Shown piece by piece: positions 51,748-60,005 of a DNA stretch of 64,000 nt (positions are counted from its first letter, which is position 1; each line of letters begins with the position of its first letter). Origin of the DNA: Flagellimonas lutaonensis. Lineage in GTDB: Bacteria > Bacteroidota > Bacteroidia > Flavobacteriales > Flavobacteriaceae. The position numbers were made by a program, and so were the translations under genes. The notes under the pieces were generated by a model. It was not told the DNA's origin. It saw only the letters and a list, made by a program, of their open reading frames with translations, and did not search any database. The stretch lies in NCBI RefSeq assembly GCF_000963865.1, contig NZ_CP011071.1, positions 996,501 through 1,060,500 on the forward strand, in the 5' to 3' direction.

Positions 51748-51944
51748 ATACCTCCAAGATACAATTTTAAAGCAGTTCACCACACCCTTTTGGTAAACTG
51801 GCTTTTTATCGGGCATTGACATGGGCAATCCTCAAATAAATGGTACAATACCTTACTTTTACAGCCAACAATTCTTGGACCTTTTTGTAAAGATATGTAC
51901 ACACCACAGACCAAGGTCGGTGAACTTACAAAACAAAAAAATTG

Positions 51945-52565
51945 ATGGACGCCTCAAAGGATCTACTGCTCATCTTTACCCGAAACCCCGAATTGGGAAA
52001 ATGCAAGACCCGCTTGGCAAAGACCGTTGGCGACCAAGCGGCCCTCGACATCTATACATTTTTGTTGGAACACACCTTGCAAATTACCAAAGGGCTGCCC
52101 GCAACCAAATATGTCTACTACTCAGAAGAGATTTGGCAAGATGATATTTGGGAAGCCGGTATCTACACCAAAAAACTGCAACAGGGCAACGACTTGGGCA
52201 ACCGTATGCACAATGCTTTTGTTGAAGGCTTTGACGAAGGGTTTGAAAAAATCGTCGTTATCGGAAGCGATATGTACGATCTCTCCCAAGTAGACCTTGA
52301 ACAAGCCTTTCGGGAGTTGGACACCAACGATTTTGTCATTGGCCCTGCGCATGATGGGGGCTACTACTTGCTCGGCATGAAACGTTTATATGCGCCTTTG
52401 TTCAAAAACAAGGCTTGGGGCGCAGAAAATGTGCTGCAAGACACCTTGGCCGACTTAAAAAATGAAGAAATCGTTTTGCTCGATATGCGAAATGATGTTG
52501 ATTTGTATGACGATATCAAAGATATTGAGGCCTTTCAGGCTTTTCTAAAACATATGGAAGAATGA
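51945..52565 (+). CDS. TIGR04282-family glycosyltransferase (DUF2064)
   Basis: GT-A-fold protein of 206 residues. LLLIFTRNPELGKCKTRLA near the N-terminus is the DUF2064/TIGR04282 start, and VVIGSDMYDLSQVDLEQAF and IGPAHDGGYYLLGMKR are the conserved core. TIGR04282 proteins are linked to arsenosugar biosynthesis by neighbourhood. It overlaps the next gene by four bases (ATGA), so it is coupled to purine nucleoside phosphorylase. ATG 51945 is used; TTG 51942 is also open. Confidence 0.9.
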   Translation: MDASKDLLLIFTRNPELGKCKTRLAKTVGDQAALDIYTFLLEHTLQITKGLPATKYVYYSEEIWQDDIWEAGIYTKKLQQGNDLGNRMHNAFVEGFDEGFEKIVVIGSDMYDLSQVDLEQAFRELDTNDFVIGPAHDGGYYLLGMKRLYAPLFKNKAWGAENVLQDTLADLKNEEIVLLDMRNDVDLYDDIKDIEAFQAFLKHMEE

Positions 52566-53377
52566 CACAGAAACTGTTGGATGAATCAGTAGCCTATTTG
52601 CGGTCAAAAGGGTTCGTAGACCCCGAAATAGGCATTGTACTCGGTACTGGGCTCGGACAATTGGTCGATGAGATCGAAAACCCGGTGGAAGCCCATTACA
52701 ACCATATCCCCTATTTTCCTCTGGCAACGGTCGAGTTCCACTCTGGCAAACTACTTTTCGGCACCATTGAAGGTACGCAGGTCGTGGTCATGCAGGGTCG
52801 CTTTCACCTGTATGAGGGATATGATTTTTTGGATGTAACCTACCCCATCAGGGTCATGCACCAATTGGGTATCAAGAAACTGTTCATATCCAATGCCGCA
52901 GGGGCCATCAACCTGAACTTTAAAAAAGGTGACATGATGCTCATCGAAGACCATATAAATCTTCAGGGGGGCTCGCCTTTGGCATTCAAAAACGTGACCG
53001 AATTCGGGGACCGGTTTGTGGATATGAGTGAGCCCTACGACATTGAAATGCGCAAAAAACTTGAGGAAATTGCCAAGCAAAAGGGCATTACCTTGCAAAA
53101 AGGGGTCTATGCCTCGGTCGTTGGCCCACAATTGGAGACCAAGGCCGAATATCGTATGCTGAAAATATTGGGGGCCGATGCCGTGGGCATGAGCACGGTG
53201 CCCGAGGTTATTGTGGCCAACCACCTTCGTTTGCCCATAGTGGCGGTTTCTGTGCTCACCGATGAGTGCGACCCCGACAACCTTGAACCCATCAACGTTC
53301 AAGAAATTATTGAAGTTGCAGGCAAGACCGAGCCCAAAATGGTCAAATTGTTCAAAGAACTGATCAAGCAAATATGA
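52562..53377 (+). CDS. Purine nucleoside phosphorylase, trimeric type
   Basis: Phosphorolyses purine nucleosides to base and (deoxy)ribose 1-phosphate. The 271-residue protein is a PNP of the trimeric class: VLGTGLGQLVDEI, GRFHLYEGYDFLDVTYPIRV, FISNAAGAINLNFKKGD with the phosphate site, and GMSTVPEVIVANH near the base site. The gene lies between two glycosyltransferases (TIGR04282 and TIGR04283); in arsenosugar synthesis such an enzyme could remove the adenine from 5'-deoxy-5'-dimethylarsinoyl-adenosine. It could also be ordinary salvage. Confidence 0.95.
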   Translation: MTQKLLDESVAYLRSKGFVDPEIGIVLGTGLGQLVDEIENPVEAHYNHIPYFPLATVEFHSGKLLFGTIEGTQVVVMQGRFHLYEGYDFLDVTYPIRVMHQLGIKKLFISNAAGAINLNFKKGDMMLIEDHINLQGGSPLAFKNVTEFGDRFVDMSEPYDIEMRKKLEEIAKQKGITLQKGVYASVVGPQLETKAEYRMLKILGADAVGMSTVPEVIVANHLRLPIVAVSVLTDECDPDNLEPINVQEIIEVAGKTEPKMVKLFKELIKQI

Positions 53378-53469
53378 TGAACGGTGGGCACAGGTACTTT
53401 CATAAACATTCAATGACCGTTTACTTGCGGCCAACGTAAGGTTTTGCGCATTTTGCCCACTATTGAACA

Positions 53470-53477
53470 TACGTTTG
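53470..53477 (+). promoter_or_regulatory. -7 element before the TIGR04283 gene
   Basis: TACGTTTG matches TAnnTTTG, with a TTTG 23 bases upstream (53443-53446), slightly longer than the usual spacer. It lies 13 bases before the ATG, so this gene may be transcribed apart from the PNP gene. Confidence 0.5.
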
Positions 53478-53489
53478 AGCACATAGCCC

Positions 53490-54185
53490 ATGAGCACCCC
53501 AACAATCAGTATCATCATCCCCACCCTAAATGAAGCGGCACATATTCAAGTGCTGCTCAATTGGTTGAAAGGCCATAGCACTGCCCAAAATATTGAGGAA
53601 ATCATAGTTGTGGATGGCGGCAGCACTGACCAAACTATCGAACTCGCCAAGCGTTCCGGCGTTTCCACCCTCTCGGGGCCACGTGGCCGGGCGCACCAAA
53701 TGAACCTCGGCGCAAAAAGCGCCAAGGGTGAAATACTCTATTTTCTACATGCAGATACTTTGCCTCCCAAAAATTTTGACACAACCATTTTAAGGGCGGT
53801 TGCCGCAGGCCACGAAGCAGGCTGCTTTCGCATGCGGTTCGACACAAAAAATCCCGTGTTGCGTTTCTTTGCCTGGTTGTCAAGAATCAACCACACCCTG
53901 TGCAGGGGCGGCGACCAATCGCTTTTTGTTACCAAACAGGTTTTCTTTGGAAACAGGGGGTTCAATGAAGACTACCTCATTTATGAGGATAGTGAATTCA
54001 TCCGTAGGCTTTATAGAAACACCGACTTTAAGGTGTTGCCGAGGCAGGTGGTTACCTCGGCCAGAAAGTATCGCCAAAAAGGCTGGTTGCGGGTACAGTA
54101 TCACTTTGCCATGATCCACCTCAAAAATTATCTTGGTGCAGGCCCGGAAGAGCTGTACCGCTATTACAGCAAAAACTTACTTTGA
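53490..54185 (+). CDS. TIGR04283-family glycosyltransferase
   Basis: Family 2 glycosyltransferase of 231 residues. It starts TISIIIPTLNEAAHIQVLL, has VVDGGSTDQTIELAKRSGV (donor site), YFLHADTLPP (metal-binding DxD-like), and CRGGDQSLFVTKQVFFGNRG with DSEFIRRL near the acceptor site. TIGR04283 is annotated as an arsenosugar biosynthesis glycosyltransferase, by neighbourhood. Its 3' end overlaps the convergent amidase gene by nine bases. Confidence 0.9.
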   Translation: MSTPTISIIIPTLNEAAHIQVLLNWLKGHSTAQNIEEIIVVDGGSTDQTIELAKRSGVSTLSGPRGRAHQMNLGAKSAKGEILYFLHADTLPPKNFDTTILRAVAAGHEAGCFRMRFDTKNPVLRFFAWLSRINHTLCRGGDQSLFVTKQVFFGNRGFNEDYLIYEDSEFIRRLYRNTDFKVLPRQVVTSARKYRQKGWLRVQYHFAMIHLKNYLGAGPEELYRYYSKNLL

Positions 54186-55199
54186 GGAAACCGTTTTTGA
54201 GGATTCATAATCCAGCATGATCCCCTCTGAAATCCATTTGGCCAAAGCCTGTCGGTTGTCAGGGTCCAAAATACGGCGTTGGTCTTTTTTGCTTCTGATA
54301 TTGCCGATTTCGATATAGGCCATGGCCGGCAGCGTATTTTTTACCACGTACAGGCCGCTGCGTTCCATAAAGGTGCCATGATAGGTCCTGTTGGGTTGAA
54401 ACTTCTTGTACTTTCTTAAAAATGTCTGGTGGATGCTCTCGGCCAACCGCTTGCCACTCTTGCTTTTTTCGTGGTGATAGAAAAACACATCGATATCAGT
54501 GCCCCTACTTCTACTATCGATATGGGTTACCAGCAACCGTTGGTACTTGCCCCGGTTTTTTAGGTATAAACGGTTAACGGCCTCGGTACGCTGTTTTAGG
54601 CGCGCCAATTGTTTTATGGGAATGGCCTTGTCAGGAATCACGAATTCGTCCGTATCCAATTCAAGGGCCCTATCGTCCCGTATTCCATCATTCCCGTCTT
54701 GTACGATAATATGCACCTCCGCGCCATGCGATAACAGCTCTCGGGCCAATCGAAGCGTTACATCGTATGCATACTCATCTTCGGCAATCAATGTTCCATT
54801 ATACTTCTCAACTGCCCCGGGATCTGGCCCACCATGCCCCGATATCAAATAATACACCGTATCATCCAACCGGTTGCTGACCGAATCGACCTTGGCAAAG
54901 GCATTGCCAAAAAGCGGATATCGTATGCCCGTATCATTTTCTTCGGCTTCTTTTAGCGCCAAGGTATCGGGCAACAAATAGGCACGGCCCATGTACAGCG
55001 ACTCATCTTCCCCCAACCTTTCAGCATTGAGCTCCACAAAGTTGTTATAAAATTTTGTGGGATTTACCCCATGCCTGCGCAGCAGGGAATAAATGCCATC
55101 GCCCTGCTTGGCCACGACGGTGGCCAGCGTATCTTGGGCCACCATAAAACAGGGAAGCCAAAAAATGAACAGGAAATATTTTAACGGGCAGGGTTTCAT
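54177..55199 (-). CDS. N-acetylmuramoyl-L-alanine amidase with LysM-like N-terminus
   Basis: Exported zinc amidase (Amidase_3 type) of 340 residues that cuts stem peptides from the glycan. After a signal peptide (YFLFIFWLPCFMVAQ) comes a LysM-like segment (about 25-80, VVAKQGDGIYSLLRRHGVNP). The catalytic domain (112-330) has the expected zinc ligands: His122 in ISGHGGPDPG, a glutamate in IAEDEYAYD (140-142), His226 in VTHIDSRS, and the catalytic Glu297 in AYIEIGNI. It is preceded by a diverged paralogue with which it shares a 4-base ATGA overlap. Confidence 0.92.
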   Translation of the reverse strand: MKPCPLKYFLFIFWLPCFMVAQDTLATVVAKQGDGIYSLLRRHGVNPTKFYNNFVELNAERLGEDESLYMGRAYLLPDTLALKEAEENDTGIRYPLFGNAFAKVDSVSNRLDDTVYYLISGHGGPDPGAVEKYNGTLIAEDEYAYDVTLRLARELLSHGAEVHIIVQDGNDGIRDDRALELDTDEFVIPDKAIPIKQLARLKQRTEAVNRLYLKNRGKYQRLLVTHIDSRSRGTDIDVFFYHHEKSKSGKRLAESIHQTFLRKYKKFQPNRTYHGTFMERSGLYVVKNTLPAMAYIEIGNIRSKKDQRRILDPDNRQALAKWISEGIMLDYESSKTVSSK

Positions 55200-56110
55200 C
55201 GATCTTCAATTTCAATATCGGCATAATCTTGGAGCATACCATTGGCTATCCACCGGGTCAGGGCCCTTTGATCCTTTCTCACCAAATGTCTGGCGGGCGT
55301 TGTAACCGCATCTGAAAGGGAAAGCACTGTTATGGGAGGCAGCATGTTTCGTGCCAAAAATAGACTTTGGTTGTCGACAAACACACCCGGGGCATCAGAC
55401 ACTTTTCCCACTTTCTTGCTATATCTGCCAAAAATGGCTTTCAGGTTCTCGGCCAACCGTTCGCCCTCGTCACTGCCATCGTAATGGTAAAAAGATACAT
55501 CCAGGCTTTTGCTTTCCAGCGAACCGTTGGCACGAAGAATGAGCAACCGCTGGTACTTGCCCTGGTTCTTAAGGTATCTCTTGTTCACCACATCAACATA
55601 CTGCTGGGCCCTAGAAAAGGCATTGGCCGTATCATCGCTGACACTTTCATTTTTGATTACATATACCTTGGCGCCGTTCACCAACAACCTACTGGCCAAA
55701 TTGGTGGCCATGGTCGTGATGAAATCATTCTGCACCTTATCTTCAACAACCAAATAATATACCGCATTCTTCAGTTCTTCGCTCTTTAAATCGAGCTTTG
55801 CCAATTCAACATCAAAAAGGGGCGTTTCGGTTCCATCGGGCAATGATACCGCCCTGCCCATGTTCTTAAACGAATCTGGTGCCATGGGAATTTTATAGGG
55901 CCAACCCTGTTTAAGCTCGCTGCCGTTTTTAATATGTCCTTCATTGAGTTCTAAAAAGGCCCCAAAATATTTCTTTGGATGGATACCCTGCTTTCTTAGG
56001 ATGGAGAAAATACCATCACCGGGTTGGGCAACAACCGTTAGAACCGAGTCTTGGCCCAAGAGCATGAATGAAAAAAGAAAAAAAACAAAAAAGGCAAGGC
56101 AATGTCGCAT
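55196..56110 (-). CDS. Amidase paralogue that has lost its zinc ligands
   Basis: A 304-residue exported protein colinear with the amidase downstream: signal peptide (RHCLAFFVFFLFSFMLLGQ), the LysM-like part (VVAQPGDGIFSILRKQGIHP), and the same helix (KRYLKNQGKYQRLLI versus RLYLKNRGKYQRLLV). At each catalytic site the residues differ: SGHGG is replaced by VVEDK with a gap that removes the first glutamate, THIDS by LRANGS, and IEIGN by LSLSD. It cannot bind zinc in the usual way. No frame defect is seen, so it is probably an expressed non-catalytic protein that may bind wall or regulate the active partner. Confidence 0.88.
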   Translation of the reverse strand: MRHCLAFFVFFLFSFMLLGQDSVLTVVAQPGDGIFSILRKQGIHPKKYFGAFLELNEGHIKNGSELKQGWPYKIPMAPDSFKNMGRAVSLPDGTETPLFDVELAKLDLKSEELKNAVYYLVVEDKVQNDFITTMATNLASRLLVNGAKVYVIKNESVSDDTANAFSRAQQYVDVVNKRYLKNQGKYQRLLILRANGSLESKSLDVSFYHYDGSDEGERLAENLKAIFGRYSKKVGKVSDAPGVFVDNQSLFLARNMLPPITVLSLSDAVTTPARHLVRKDQRALTRWIANGMLQDYADIEIEDR

Positions 56111-56214: not shown

Positions 56215-57216
56215 CTATTGCTTTTTGTAGAACGATCGTATCACTTCTTCGGCGGGCTTGTTCTGGGGAGTAAAACGGTTGTCGTTGGCACCACCGACCT
56301 TATTATGGTGAATAAACCATTTCCATACAAACCCCCCGGCGAACCAATCTTCGGTCCAAAATTCTTGGAATATGGCCCGTAGGGCATTGGCCTGGGCTTC
56401 AAGGTTCACTTTCATTTCATTGCGATCGACCAACCAAGGTTTATGGGCCGTATAATCCATACTACGGTAGCCAAATTCGGTAAACAATATGGGCCTACCC
56501 TTTTCGGCAGAGAAAGAGGCCAGCGGCTCCTTCCATTTTTGCCAGCCCGCTTTGAGTTCCTCTGGCATGGGGTGTTCTGTATCGGAAAGTGGAAAATAGG
56601 CATCGATGCCGATATAATCGAGTTCTTTCCAGAAAGGGGTTCTGGAATATTCGTCCCAGTTGGCAGCATACGTCAGTTTGCCCTTATAGACCTGCCGCAC
56701 TTTAGCAATCAGGCTTTCCCAAAAATCAGGACGGTATTTTACAAATTCTTCCAGTTCGGTGCCGATACAGAAAATATCCGTCTTTGTCTCTTCCGCAAGT
56801 TCTGCATAGGTTATAATGAACTGTTCGTATGAATCCTCAAGTGTTCTCCAATCTTCTTCAGATTGCATCATCATGTCGCCAGTGAACTCACCACGCCAAA
56901 TCCATATCTGAGGTTTGAGCATGATCTTGATCCCATTTTTCCGCAACAGCTCAATGTACTGTTTGGCGCCCGCCCTTGTTTCACCGTACCATTGACGATC
57001 CGTATTAAAGATCACGTTGGGCGATTCGAGGCTTCGAAGAAAGCCAAAAGGCATTACGGCCGCATAATTGGCGCCGACAGACACCACGGGATCAATATTT
57101 TCCTGCGACACCTTATCTCGTGAACCCACAAAGCTCACCCCATTTATTTTCTCTTGCACCTGACTGCTACAACTCAGTTGCAAGAGGCACAATAAAAAAA
57201 GCCAAAGGTTTTTCAC
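56215..57216 (-). CDS. GH113-like TIM-barrel glycoside hydrolase lipoprotein
   Basis: Exported enzyme of 333 residues with a lipobox (LFLLCLLQLSCSSQ). The TIM barrel has AAVMPFGFLRS, the acid/base candidate in FCIGTELEEFVKYRPDFWE, DYIGIDAYFPLSD, and the nucleophile candidate in RPILFTEFGYRSMD. This pattern is that of GH113-like beta-mannanases and related proteins. The substrate is uncertain; a role on wall or mannan is possible. The start is GTG 57216. It lies between a DUF547 gene and the amidase pair, all leftward. Confidence 0.85.
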   Translation of the reverse strand: MKNLWLFLLCLLQLSCSSQVQEKINGVSFVGSRDKVSQENIDPVVSVGANYAAVMPFGFLRSLESPNVIFNTDRQWYGETRAGAKQYIELLRKNGIKIMLKPQIWIWRGEFTGDMMMQSEEDWRTLEDSYEQFIITYAELAEETKTDIFCIGTELEEFVKYRPDFWESLIAKVRQVYKGKLTYAANWDEYSRTPFWKELDYIGIDAYFPLSDTEHPMPEELKAGWQKWKEPLASFSAEKGRPILFTEFGYRSMDYTAHKPWLVDRNEMKVNLEAQANALRAIFQEFWTEDWFAGGFVWKWFIHHNKVGGANDNRFTPQNKPAEEVIRSFYKKQ

Positions 57217-57268: not shown

Positions 57269-57997
57269 TTAAGATTTATTTAAGTCGTTTAGACGCCAGT
57301 CATAGGAATAATGCCCAACACCTTTGTCTACCTCGATTTTCTCTTTCCTGAATCGGTTGATGAAATCGATCACTGTTTTTCCGCCCTGAACAAAATCTTC
57401 CCTATACCACTCAAAAATCTGTGAAAGCAACACTTTATCGCCCCTTATCTTGATAAACTCGGGATTGTTGAGGGCCTGTATGGTCTGGCGCTGCATCTGG
57501 GCCTCAAGCTTATTGGGCAGATAGGCCTCGTCTATCAACGGTGGGCAACCCAGTCCGGCGCATACCAAAACAAAGTGGAACCGTGCCTCTTCAGGAAACT
57601 TTCTCCGCAACAGGTCGTTTTCAATCTCGTTCAGGGTAACGTTCTTACCCGATACCTTGTGCTTTTTTTCGTCAAAGATGCCTTTGATGTCAAGCGGAGA
57701 GGATACTGGGTAATGGGCCACCACTTCATGGATGACCAGTAGGTTATAGGCGTTGATCCAAAAAGCTTGGTATACTTTTGGGTCGTCCATAGAAACGGAA
57801 AACTCTTTGGCCATATCGATAAGCCCATTCAATGTGGTGGGATTTTGTTTGATGGATTGGTAATCGACCCTTCCGTTCTTGACGTGGGTACTGAGGAAAT
57901 CGTCTGCCTTTGAGAAGAATGCAGTCGTACTTTGTGGGAAGCCCAACTGATAGAACCCAAACAATAGAACCGTAACAATTTTTTTCAATATTGGCAT
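57269..57997 (-). CDS. Exported DUF547 protein
   Basis: A DUF547-family protein of 242 residues with a signal peptide (LKKIVTVLLFGFYQLGFPQ). The family signature FWINAYNLLVIHEVVAHYPV is near residue 85-105, and HFVLVCAGLGCPPLIDEAY holds a conserved cysteine pair. A thiol-protease-like role has been suggested for the fold, but it is not shown. The gene begins at ATG 57997 and is the first of the leftward run that includes the GH113-like gene and the amidase pair. Confidence 0.88.
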   Translation of the reverse strand: MPILKKIVTVLLFGFYQLGFPQSTTAFFSKADDFLSTHVKNGRVDYQSIKQNPTTLNGLIDMAKEFSVSMDDPKVYQAFWINAYNLLVIHEVVAHYPVSSPLDIKGIFDEKKHKVSGKNVTLNEIENDLLRRKFPEEARFHFVLVCAGLGCPPLIDEAYLPNKLEAQMQRQTIQALNNPEFIKIRGDKVLLSQIFEWYREDFVQGGKTVIDFINRFRKEKIEVDKGVGHYSYDWRLNDLNKS

Positions 57998-58128
57998 CGA
58001 CAATTCTTAATTCTTGGTGTTGGTCGCAAAAAAAGGCCGTAACCTACAGTTTAATAGGAAATATCGTCAAACCCGGTGCCCGGTGGGCCACAAAATAGCA
58101 AAACCTTACATATCCCAACAAAATTTAA

Positions 58129-59591: not shown

Positions 59592-60005
59592 ATGGCAACT
59601 GTAGATAAATTCGAAGATTTAGAAGTTTTGCAATTGGCTAGAGTGGTTTGTCAGCAGGTAGAGAAGCTTTTTCAAAACACCTAACTTGCTGGAAATTTTT
59701 CACTTCGTGACCAAATGGAAAGAAGTTCAGGTTCAATAATGGATAACATTGCTGAAGGGTTTGACAGGGATGGAAATAGTGAGTTCCATAACTTTTTAAG
59801 CTATTCTAAAGGTTCGTGTTCTGAATTGAAGTCCCAAACCTATCGGGCTTTTGACAAAGGATTGATTTCAGTGGAAGTGTTAGAGCAGATTCAATCAAGA
59901 ATAGAAATAACAACAAACAAAATAGGAGCTTTCATGTTCTATTTGAGAAAATCTAACTTCAGAGGTCAAAAATTCAAATGGACACCGAACAACAATAAAC
60001 CATGA
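59592..60005 (+). pseudogene. Four-helix-bundle protein (S23/avd-like) with an in-frame stop
   Basis: From ATG 59592 the frame reads MATVDKFEDLEVLQLARVV and continues to an in-frame TAA at 59682-59684 after 30 residues; the same frame then continues LAGNFSLRDQMERSSGSIMD and NIAEGFDRDG to a stop at 60003-60005. Together these match the four-helix-bundle family (TIGR02436), known from 23S rRNA intervening sequences and as the avd protein of diversity-generating retroelements. No reverse transcriptase or repeat is present here. The break is a single nonsense codon, so recent loss (or read-through) is likely. A downstream ATG (59715) could yield a shortened product. Confidence 0.82.

Follow-up and report, generated by a model that had tools for sequence, protein, structure and literature searches.

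A catalytically dead Amidase_3-like paralogue of Flagellimonas lutaonensis is kept intact by selection and also occurs without its active twin

Does a protein that has lost the catalytic site of a cell wall amidase exist to serve the active amidase encoded beside it? The question is raised by a tandem pair of genes in a 64,000-nucleotide stretch of the Flagellimonas lutaonensis genome (the window; contig NZ_CP011071.1, positions 996,501 to 1,060,500), in which a catalytically dead protein, here termed DEAD, is encoded upstream of an active-type enzyme, AMI (Table 1). An initial annotation of the window had read the two genes as a coupled pair, with the dead protein acting as a regulator, a substrate-presenting subunit or a decoy for the active amidase. 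Inspection of the sequence bore out its coordinates, its assignment of both genes to the minus strand, the ATGA overlap and the intactness of both frames. In a BLASTP comparison, DEAD and AMI exhibited 31% identity over 315 columns (E = 7e-48), a level far above chance, and on this evidence the two are paralogues.

Table 1. Features of the DEAD-AMI locus, with positions numbered from the first letter of the window
Feature	Position	Strand	Basis
DEAD, catalytically dead LysM-like + Amidase_3-like protein, 304 aa	55196..56110	-	intact open frame, paralogy to AMI
AMI, active-type LysM-like + Amidase_3 enzyme, 340 aa	54177..55199	-	Pfam Amidase_3 68.9 bits, model, conserved residues
ATGA stop/start overlap of the DEAD and AMI genes	55196..55199	-	sequence
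Hydrophobic N-terminus of DEAD, likely signal peptide ending before Gln20	56054..56110	-	sequence; Q20 invariant
LysM-like domain of DEAD, residues 23-76	55883..56044	-	profile-profile comparison
Pseudo-catalytic Amidase_3-like domain of DEAD, residues 113-300	55211..55774	-	structural alignment to CwlD, Rv3717, AmiC2 and others, Z 13-16
AMI His122, predicted first zinc ligand (SGHGG)	54834..54836	-	alignments
AMI Glu140, predicted zinc-ligand glutamate	54780..54782	-	alignments
AMI His226, predicted second zinc His	54522..54524	-	alignments
AMI Glu297, predicted catalytic glutamate; Ser in window DEAD	54309..54311	-	alignments
GH113-family gene, upstream, same strand	56215..57216	-	Pfam GH113 153.9 bits, synteny
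DUF547 gene, head of syntenic block	57269..58003	-	Pfam DUF547 78.3 bits, synteny

AMI passed the Pfam Amidase_3 cut-off (68.9 bits versus 27), and alignments placed in it three predicted zinc ligands, H122, E140 and H226, and a predicted catalytic glutamate, E297. The three ligands were fully conserved in 52 non-redundant AMI orthologues, and E297 was conserved in the AMI orthologues listed. Judged by these residues, AMI is a divergent LysM-like plus Amidase_3 enzyme of the active type.

At the columns of H122, E140, H226 and E297, DEAD of the window has an aspartate, a gap, an arginine and a serine, respectively, and the loops between the catalytic-site columns are deleted. The His/Glu/His ligands and catalytic Glu by which an Amidase_3 enzyme is recognized are all missing from it, in agreement with the initial annotation, which had reported the loss of the zinc histidines, the first glutamate and the catalytic glutamate. 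Across orthologues this description required qualification. In none of the 38 non-redundant DEAD orthologues was the second zinc His present, its column holding N, R, D, Q or K, but a Glu persisted at the catalytic-Glu column in at least a quarter of this set, never alongside the second zinc His. The remaining zinc-site columns were variable, with His retained at the H122 column in 1 of the 38 and Glu at the E140 column in 2. Because the replacements were many and different, no substitute zinc ligand is evident in DEAD, and alternative metal ligands were rejected as the orthologue alignment contained no conserved substitute.

Seven polar residues (N176, Y186, Q187, R188, H209, N255 and D295) were invariant in the DEAD clade and could be taken as signs of some other catalysis or of a remodelled metal site. 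Most of them are shared with the active enzyme and hence are part of a common core, the columns of the former metal site are free to vary, and an analysis of column conservation detected no His/Glu/Asp/Cys set that was new and specific to the dead clade in the amidase-like domain. We therefore regard such an activity as very unlikely. As the pocket columns vary freely, a substrate-mimicking, substrate-presenting or decoy role mediated by the old pocket is likewise disfavoured on the sequence data.

Although the catalytic site has gone, the Amidase_3 fold is predicted to have been kept. DEAD matched no Pfam family, and NCBIfam gave only a trace of CwlD (15 bits). Prediction of the structure of each protein alone, a check that the initial annotation had proposed, produced an Amidase_3 fold for both, with Z scores to CwlD of 16.2 for DEAD and 21.4 for AMI. 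The best solved neighbours of the DEAD model (pLDDT 88.8, pTM 0.86) were CwlD (7rag_B; rmsd 3.5 over 169 residues), Rv3717 (Z 15.8) and AmiC2 (Z 15.0). All structural neighbours listed for residues 113-300 were Amidase_3 proteins, a result that taken alone does not rule out another fold such as LytM, and the known partner-bound amidases AmiB-EnvC, CwlD-GerS and LytH-ActH were among the structural neighbours. DEAD is thus linked to this family in fold by the structural score and in ancestry by the BLASTP match with AMI and by the tree described below.

The LysM-like start that had been ascribed to both proteins held as a remote relation, and not as a Pfam LysM domain, for which there was no match in 43 family members. 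When profiles were compared with those of LysM domains from the same genome, the probability was 88% for the dead clade, 59% for the active clade and ≤7% for column shuffles, and the DEAD model has a beta-alpha-alpha-beta order in this part. These data are consistent with a remote LysM relation of the approximately 50 residues that follow the predicted signal peptide. The latter was predicted from a hydrophobic N-terminus, read by eye, in the aligned DEAD orthologues, and Q20 (DEAD numbering) did not vary in either the dead or the active non-redundant set.

In the phylogenetic tree the 17 DEAD sequences grouped as a single clade, with an SH-aLRT support of 100 and a stem of 1.01, that arises from within the active enzymes, which argues for one old duplication followed by many losses; because of long branches, the attachment point of this clade was unsure. 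A recent duplication of the neighbour was rejected because this clade is separate from every active sequence. The AMI group, comprising divergent LysM-like Amidase_3 enzymes of Bacteroidia, is the apparent sister group and origin of DEAD, sharing its domain order and its syntenic site. Unlike DEAD, its members have fully conserved active-type catalytic residues, and it is their catalytic domain in which conservation is strongest.

Three observations would fit a functionless duplicate in decay: DEAD evolved approximately 2- to 3-fold faster than AMI in the tree, was absent from many genera and was apparently broken in two genomes, by split frames in G176 and by a stop in G730. Selection analyses contradicted this reading. 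In pairwise codon models of the closest congeners, omega was 0.187 for DEAD, 0.109 for AMI and 0.067 for GH113, with a likelihood ratio test (LRT) value of 52 for purifying selection on DEAD. Whole-gene omega values for DEAD ranged from 0.03 to 0.24 in all close pairs tested, with LRT values against neutrality of at least 29, and the clade is an old one of 10 genera. The pseudogene reading was rejected by these tests, and functionless decay is largely refuted and scarcely credible. Overall, these analyses supported DEAD as a catalytically dead paralogue that is kept intact by selection.

The distribution of both genes was then relevant to whether they work as a pair. Family members were detected in 84 of 397 Flavobacteriaceae genomes, and, counting that of the window, 24 of 295 genomes of the class had an active-type relative. 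A combination of the family search, genus searches and residue checks located DEAD in about 41 Flavobacteriaceae genomes from 10 genera, the two apparently broken copies included. Most Flavobacteriaceae genomes searched were without DEAD, which is therefore dispensable for the family. In G176 (L078 5986-6971), the gene is split into two overlapping frames, possibly by a frameshift or an assembly error, and the active amidase is located elsewhere in the genome. Absence or breakage of the upstream gene in close relatives would have counted against the initial annotation, but the window's three congeners all had an unbroken DEAD, and in each the two genes shared the ATGA overlap.

This overlap is one reason for considering DEAD as a dedicated regulator of the adjacent amidase, whether an activator, an inhibitor or a heterodimer subunit, with translational coupling setting equal amounts of the two proteins. 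It was present in 4 of 4 genomes of the window's genus, and both genes were found in all 12 genomes of genus g33 and in tandem in most genomes holding both; the partner-bound amidases among the structural neighbours would also fit such a role. The four-base overlap was, however, restricted to the window and its three congeners among the loci examined; elsewhere the genes abut, are spaced by tens to approximately 490 bases or have other genes between them, and in genus g184 the two genes were apart where both were present. (G709, with a completeness of 99%, was the only g184 species with neither gene.) Co-transcription is probable where both genes are present, because a tandem duplication left them side by side. 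Most AMI-bearing genomes were without DEAD, and rate covariation with DEAD was not higher for AMI (partial r, 0.38) than for GH113 (0.48) or for a POTRA protein of the same block (0.52) and did not discriminate between them in a common set of 12.

A test of dependence was provided by 10 genomes from three genera (G112, G146, G190 and G710 to G716; 92 to 99% complete) which had DEAD without AMI. G718 was left out of this set as the gene was at a contig end. In the syntenic blocks of these genomes AMI was not beside DEAD, and in G710 to G716 the gene next to DEAD was a DUF6503 gene or a GT2 gene. The dead-clade profile detects AMI readily where it is present (about 230 to 270 bits), and hence the absence of AMI is real at that sensitivity. 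Some of these genomes contained short Amidase_3 frames (~200 aa) and second AmiC-like genes, which were taken as other subfamilies because the dead-clade profile missed both. Analysis of DEAD-only species pairs with unsaturated dS gave omega values of 0.10 to 0.20 for the whole gene (LRT of 29 to 84 versus neutrality) and 0.09 to 0.16 for the amidase-like part alone. As omega is low in these species, DEAD appears to do work without its twin. Retention of a constrained DEAD in these 10 genomes weakened the coupled-pair interpretation: a dead paralogue is indeed kept under selection, but its existence as the partner of the adjacent amidase is not supported, given this retention and the absence of DEAD from most AMI genomes. 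Partnership is neither required nor proven, and we consider a dedicated regulator to be rather unlikely.

Conservation was distributed differently in the two proteins. Among 12 genomes with both genes, mean identity in the LysM-like part was 54% for DEAD versus 50% for AMI, while in the amidase-like part it was 35% for DEAD versus 74% for AMI. Residues conserved only in the dead clade were found mainly in the LysM-like part and the linker (K47, G63, S64, S80, K82, E95, E102 and L103). These computations showed that constraint in DEAD has moved towards the LysM-like part. The amidase-like part, which is still constrained between close species, may have a role beyond that of holding the fold.

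The drift of the zinc-site columns and the location of the dead-clade-only residues suggested a binding protein built on an inert scaffold. Our preferred explanation, which we regard as evenly poised between right and wrong, is that DEAD is a non-catalytic wall-binding, scaffold or targeting factor that is independent of the adjacent amidase and possibly serves other hydrolases. An ancient single duplication of a LysM-like/Amidase_3 enzyme within Flavobacteriaceae would have given rise to an exported pseudo-amidase. The putative signal peptide would direct DEAD to the periplasm, the remotely LysM-related domain may bind peptidoglycan or a glycan, and the inert amidase-like domain could act as a scaffold contacting other envelope proteins, possibly the main AmiC-type amidase, which is always present, or proteins encoded at the GH113 locus; DEAD would not be a dedicated subunit of the adjacent amidase. 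More tentatively, DEAD might represent a family of exported pseudoenzymes with the Amidase_3 fold, where the target of selection moved from the catalytic to the LysM-like domain, so that a wall cutter became a wall receptor or hub outliving its enzymatic twin.

A special case of the preferred explanation is that DEAD activates or recruits other hydrolases, above all the main AmiC-type amidase, in the manner of DipM and EnvC. An AmiC-type Amidase_3 protein (about 175 to 190 bits) was present in every genome checked, the DEAD-only ones included, and DipM provides a precedent for a dead hydrolase domain serving several autolysins (PMC10336132). As DEAD is absent from many genomes with the main amidase, we consider this specific form unlikely.

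Control by a dead homologue had been thought undescribed for this family, a claim which the literature overturned. CwlM of mycobacteria is an Amidase_3 homologue in which the zinc ligands are not conserved and which regulates wall synthesis, EnvC is a dead wall-hydrolase homologue with a regulatory role (PMC4946905), and amidases are activated by LytM proteins that have degenerated, EnvC and DipM among them (PMC10336132). Dead wall-hydrolase homologues are thus already known as regulators. CwlM resembles DEAD in being an Amidase_3-type homologue with a degenerate zinc site, and its essential role is regulatory; unlike DEAD, it is cytoplasmic, has no secretion signal and acts on MurA, whereas DEAD has a predicted signal peptide, a LysM-like domain and, in many genomes, a tandem active twin. 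EnvC, NlpD, ActS and DipM share with DEAD a hydrolase fold, lost catalysis and export (predicted for DEAD), and work via wall hydrolases, several of them amidases, but they have the LytM (M23) fold and are not paralogues of the target amidase. CwlD-GerS and LytH-ActH are Amidase_3 enzymes with a dedicated extracytoplasmic protein partner and so resemble AMI with DEAD as candidate partner. To our knowledge, those partners are not dead copies of the amidase, whereas DEAD is a paralogue that has lost the catalytic site and is found in genomes lacking the enzyme as well. A literature search found no paper on the flavobacterial pair. The apparent novelty of DEAD is the combination of predicted export, a LysM-like domain, paralogy to an active neighbour and an ability to persist without it. 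If this view is correct, an exported paralogous pseudo-amidase would be added to the few inactive wall hydrolases that have a regulatory or structural role, and genera with DEAD but without the active twin would constitute a natural test. The locus also serves as a warning against reading a partnership from tandem position and gene overlap alone.

The genes surrounding the pair form a block, DUF547 - x290 - GH113 - (x247) - POTRA protein - DEAD - AMI, facing GT2 - PNP - TIGR04282, which is kept across the family with gaps. The initial annotation had proposed that the pair, with the GH113-like and DUF547 genes, could make up a wall-remodelling set; GH113 was near every DEAD locus examined but also occurs without DEAD. 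The POTRA protein (~421 aa), located between GH113 and DEAD in most relatives (L051 5216-6481 and equivalents), had a weak N-terminal match (22.7 bits; cut-off, 21.3) and gave no match in a PDB sequence search. It was present in all 10 DEAD-only loci, but an obligatory link to DEAD was rejected as it is absent from the whole window genome; in congener G002 it is found at another place. A conserved protein of ~290 aa without a Pfam match lies between DUF547 and GH113 in relatives (L051 3271-4137 and equivalents) and is missing at the window locus. A promoter and terminator scan yielded no more than about chance, the patterns being those of sigma-70 and not suited to Bacteroidota.

On the other side of the pair, positions 51942-54185 of the window contain in conserved order a gene that is presumably TIGR04282-like, a purine nucleoside phosphorylase gene and a TIGR04283 arsenosugar-type glycosyltransferase gene. 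In many relatives a 321-aa methyltransferase is added at this position, and the window is without it at that place. A small frame at 59715-60005, which we take to resemble the four-helix-bundle proteins encoded in 23S rRNA intervening sequences, lies in the window between the genes for an FAD oxidoreductase and a 4Fe-4S protein; only ~6 bases separate this gene pair in congeners G001 and G002.
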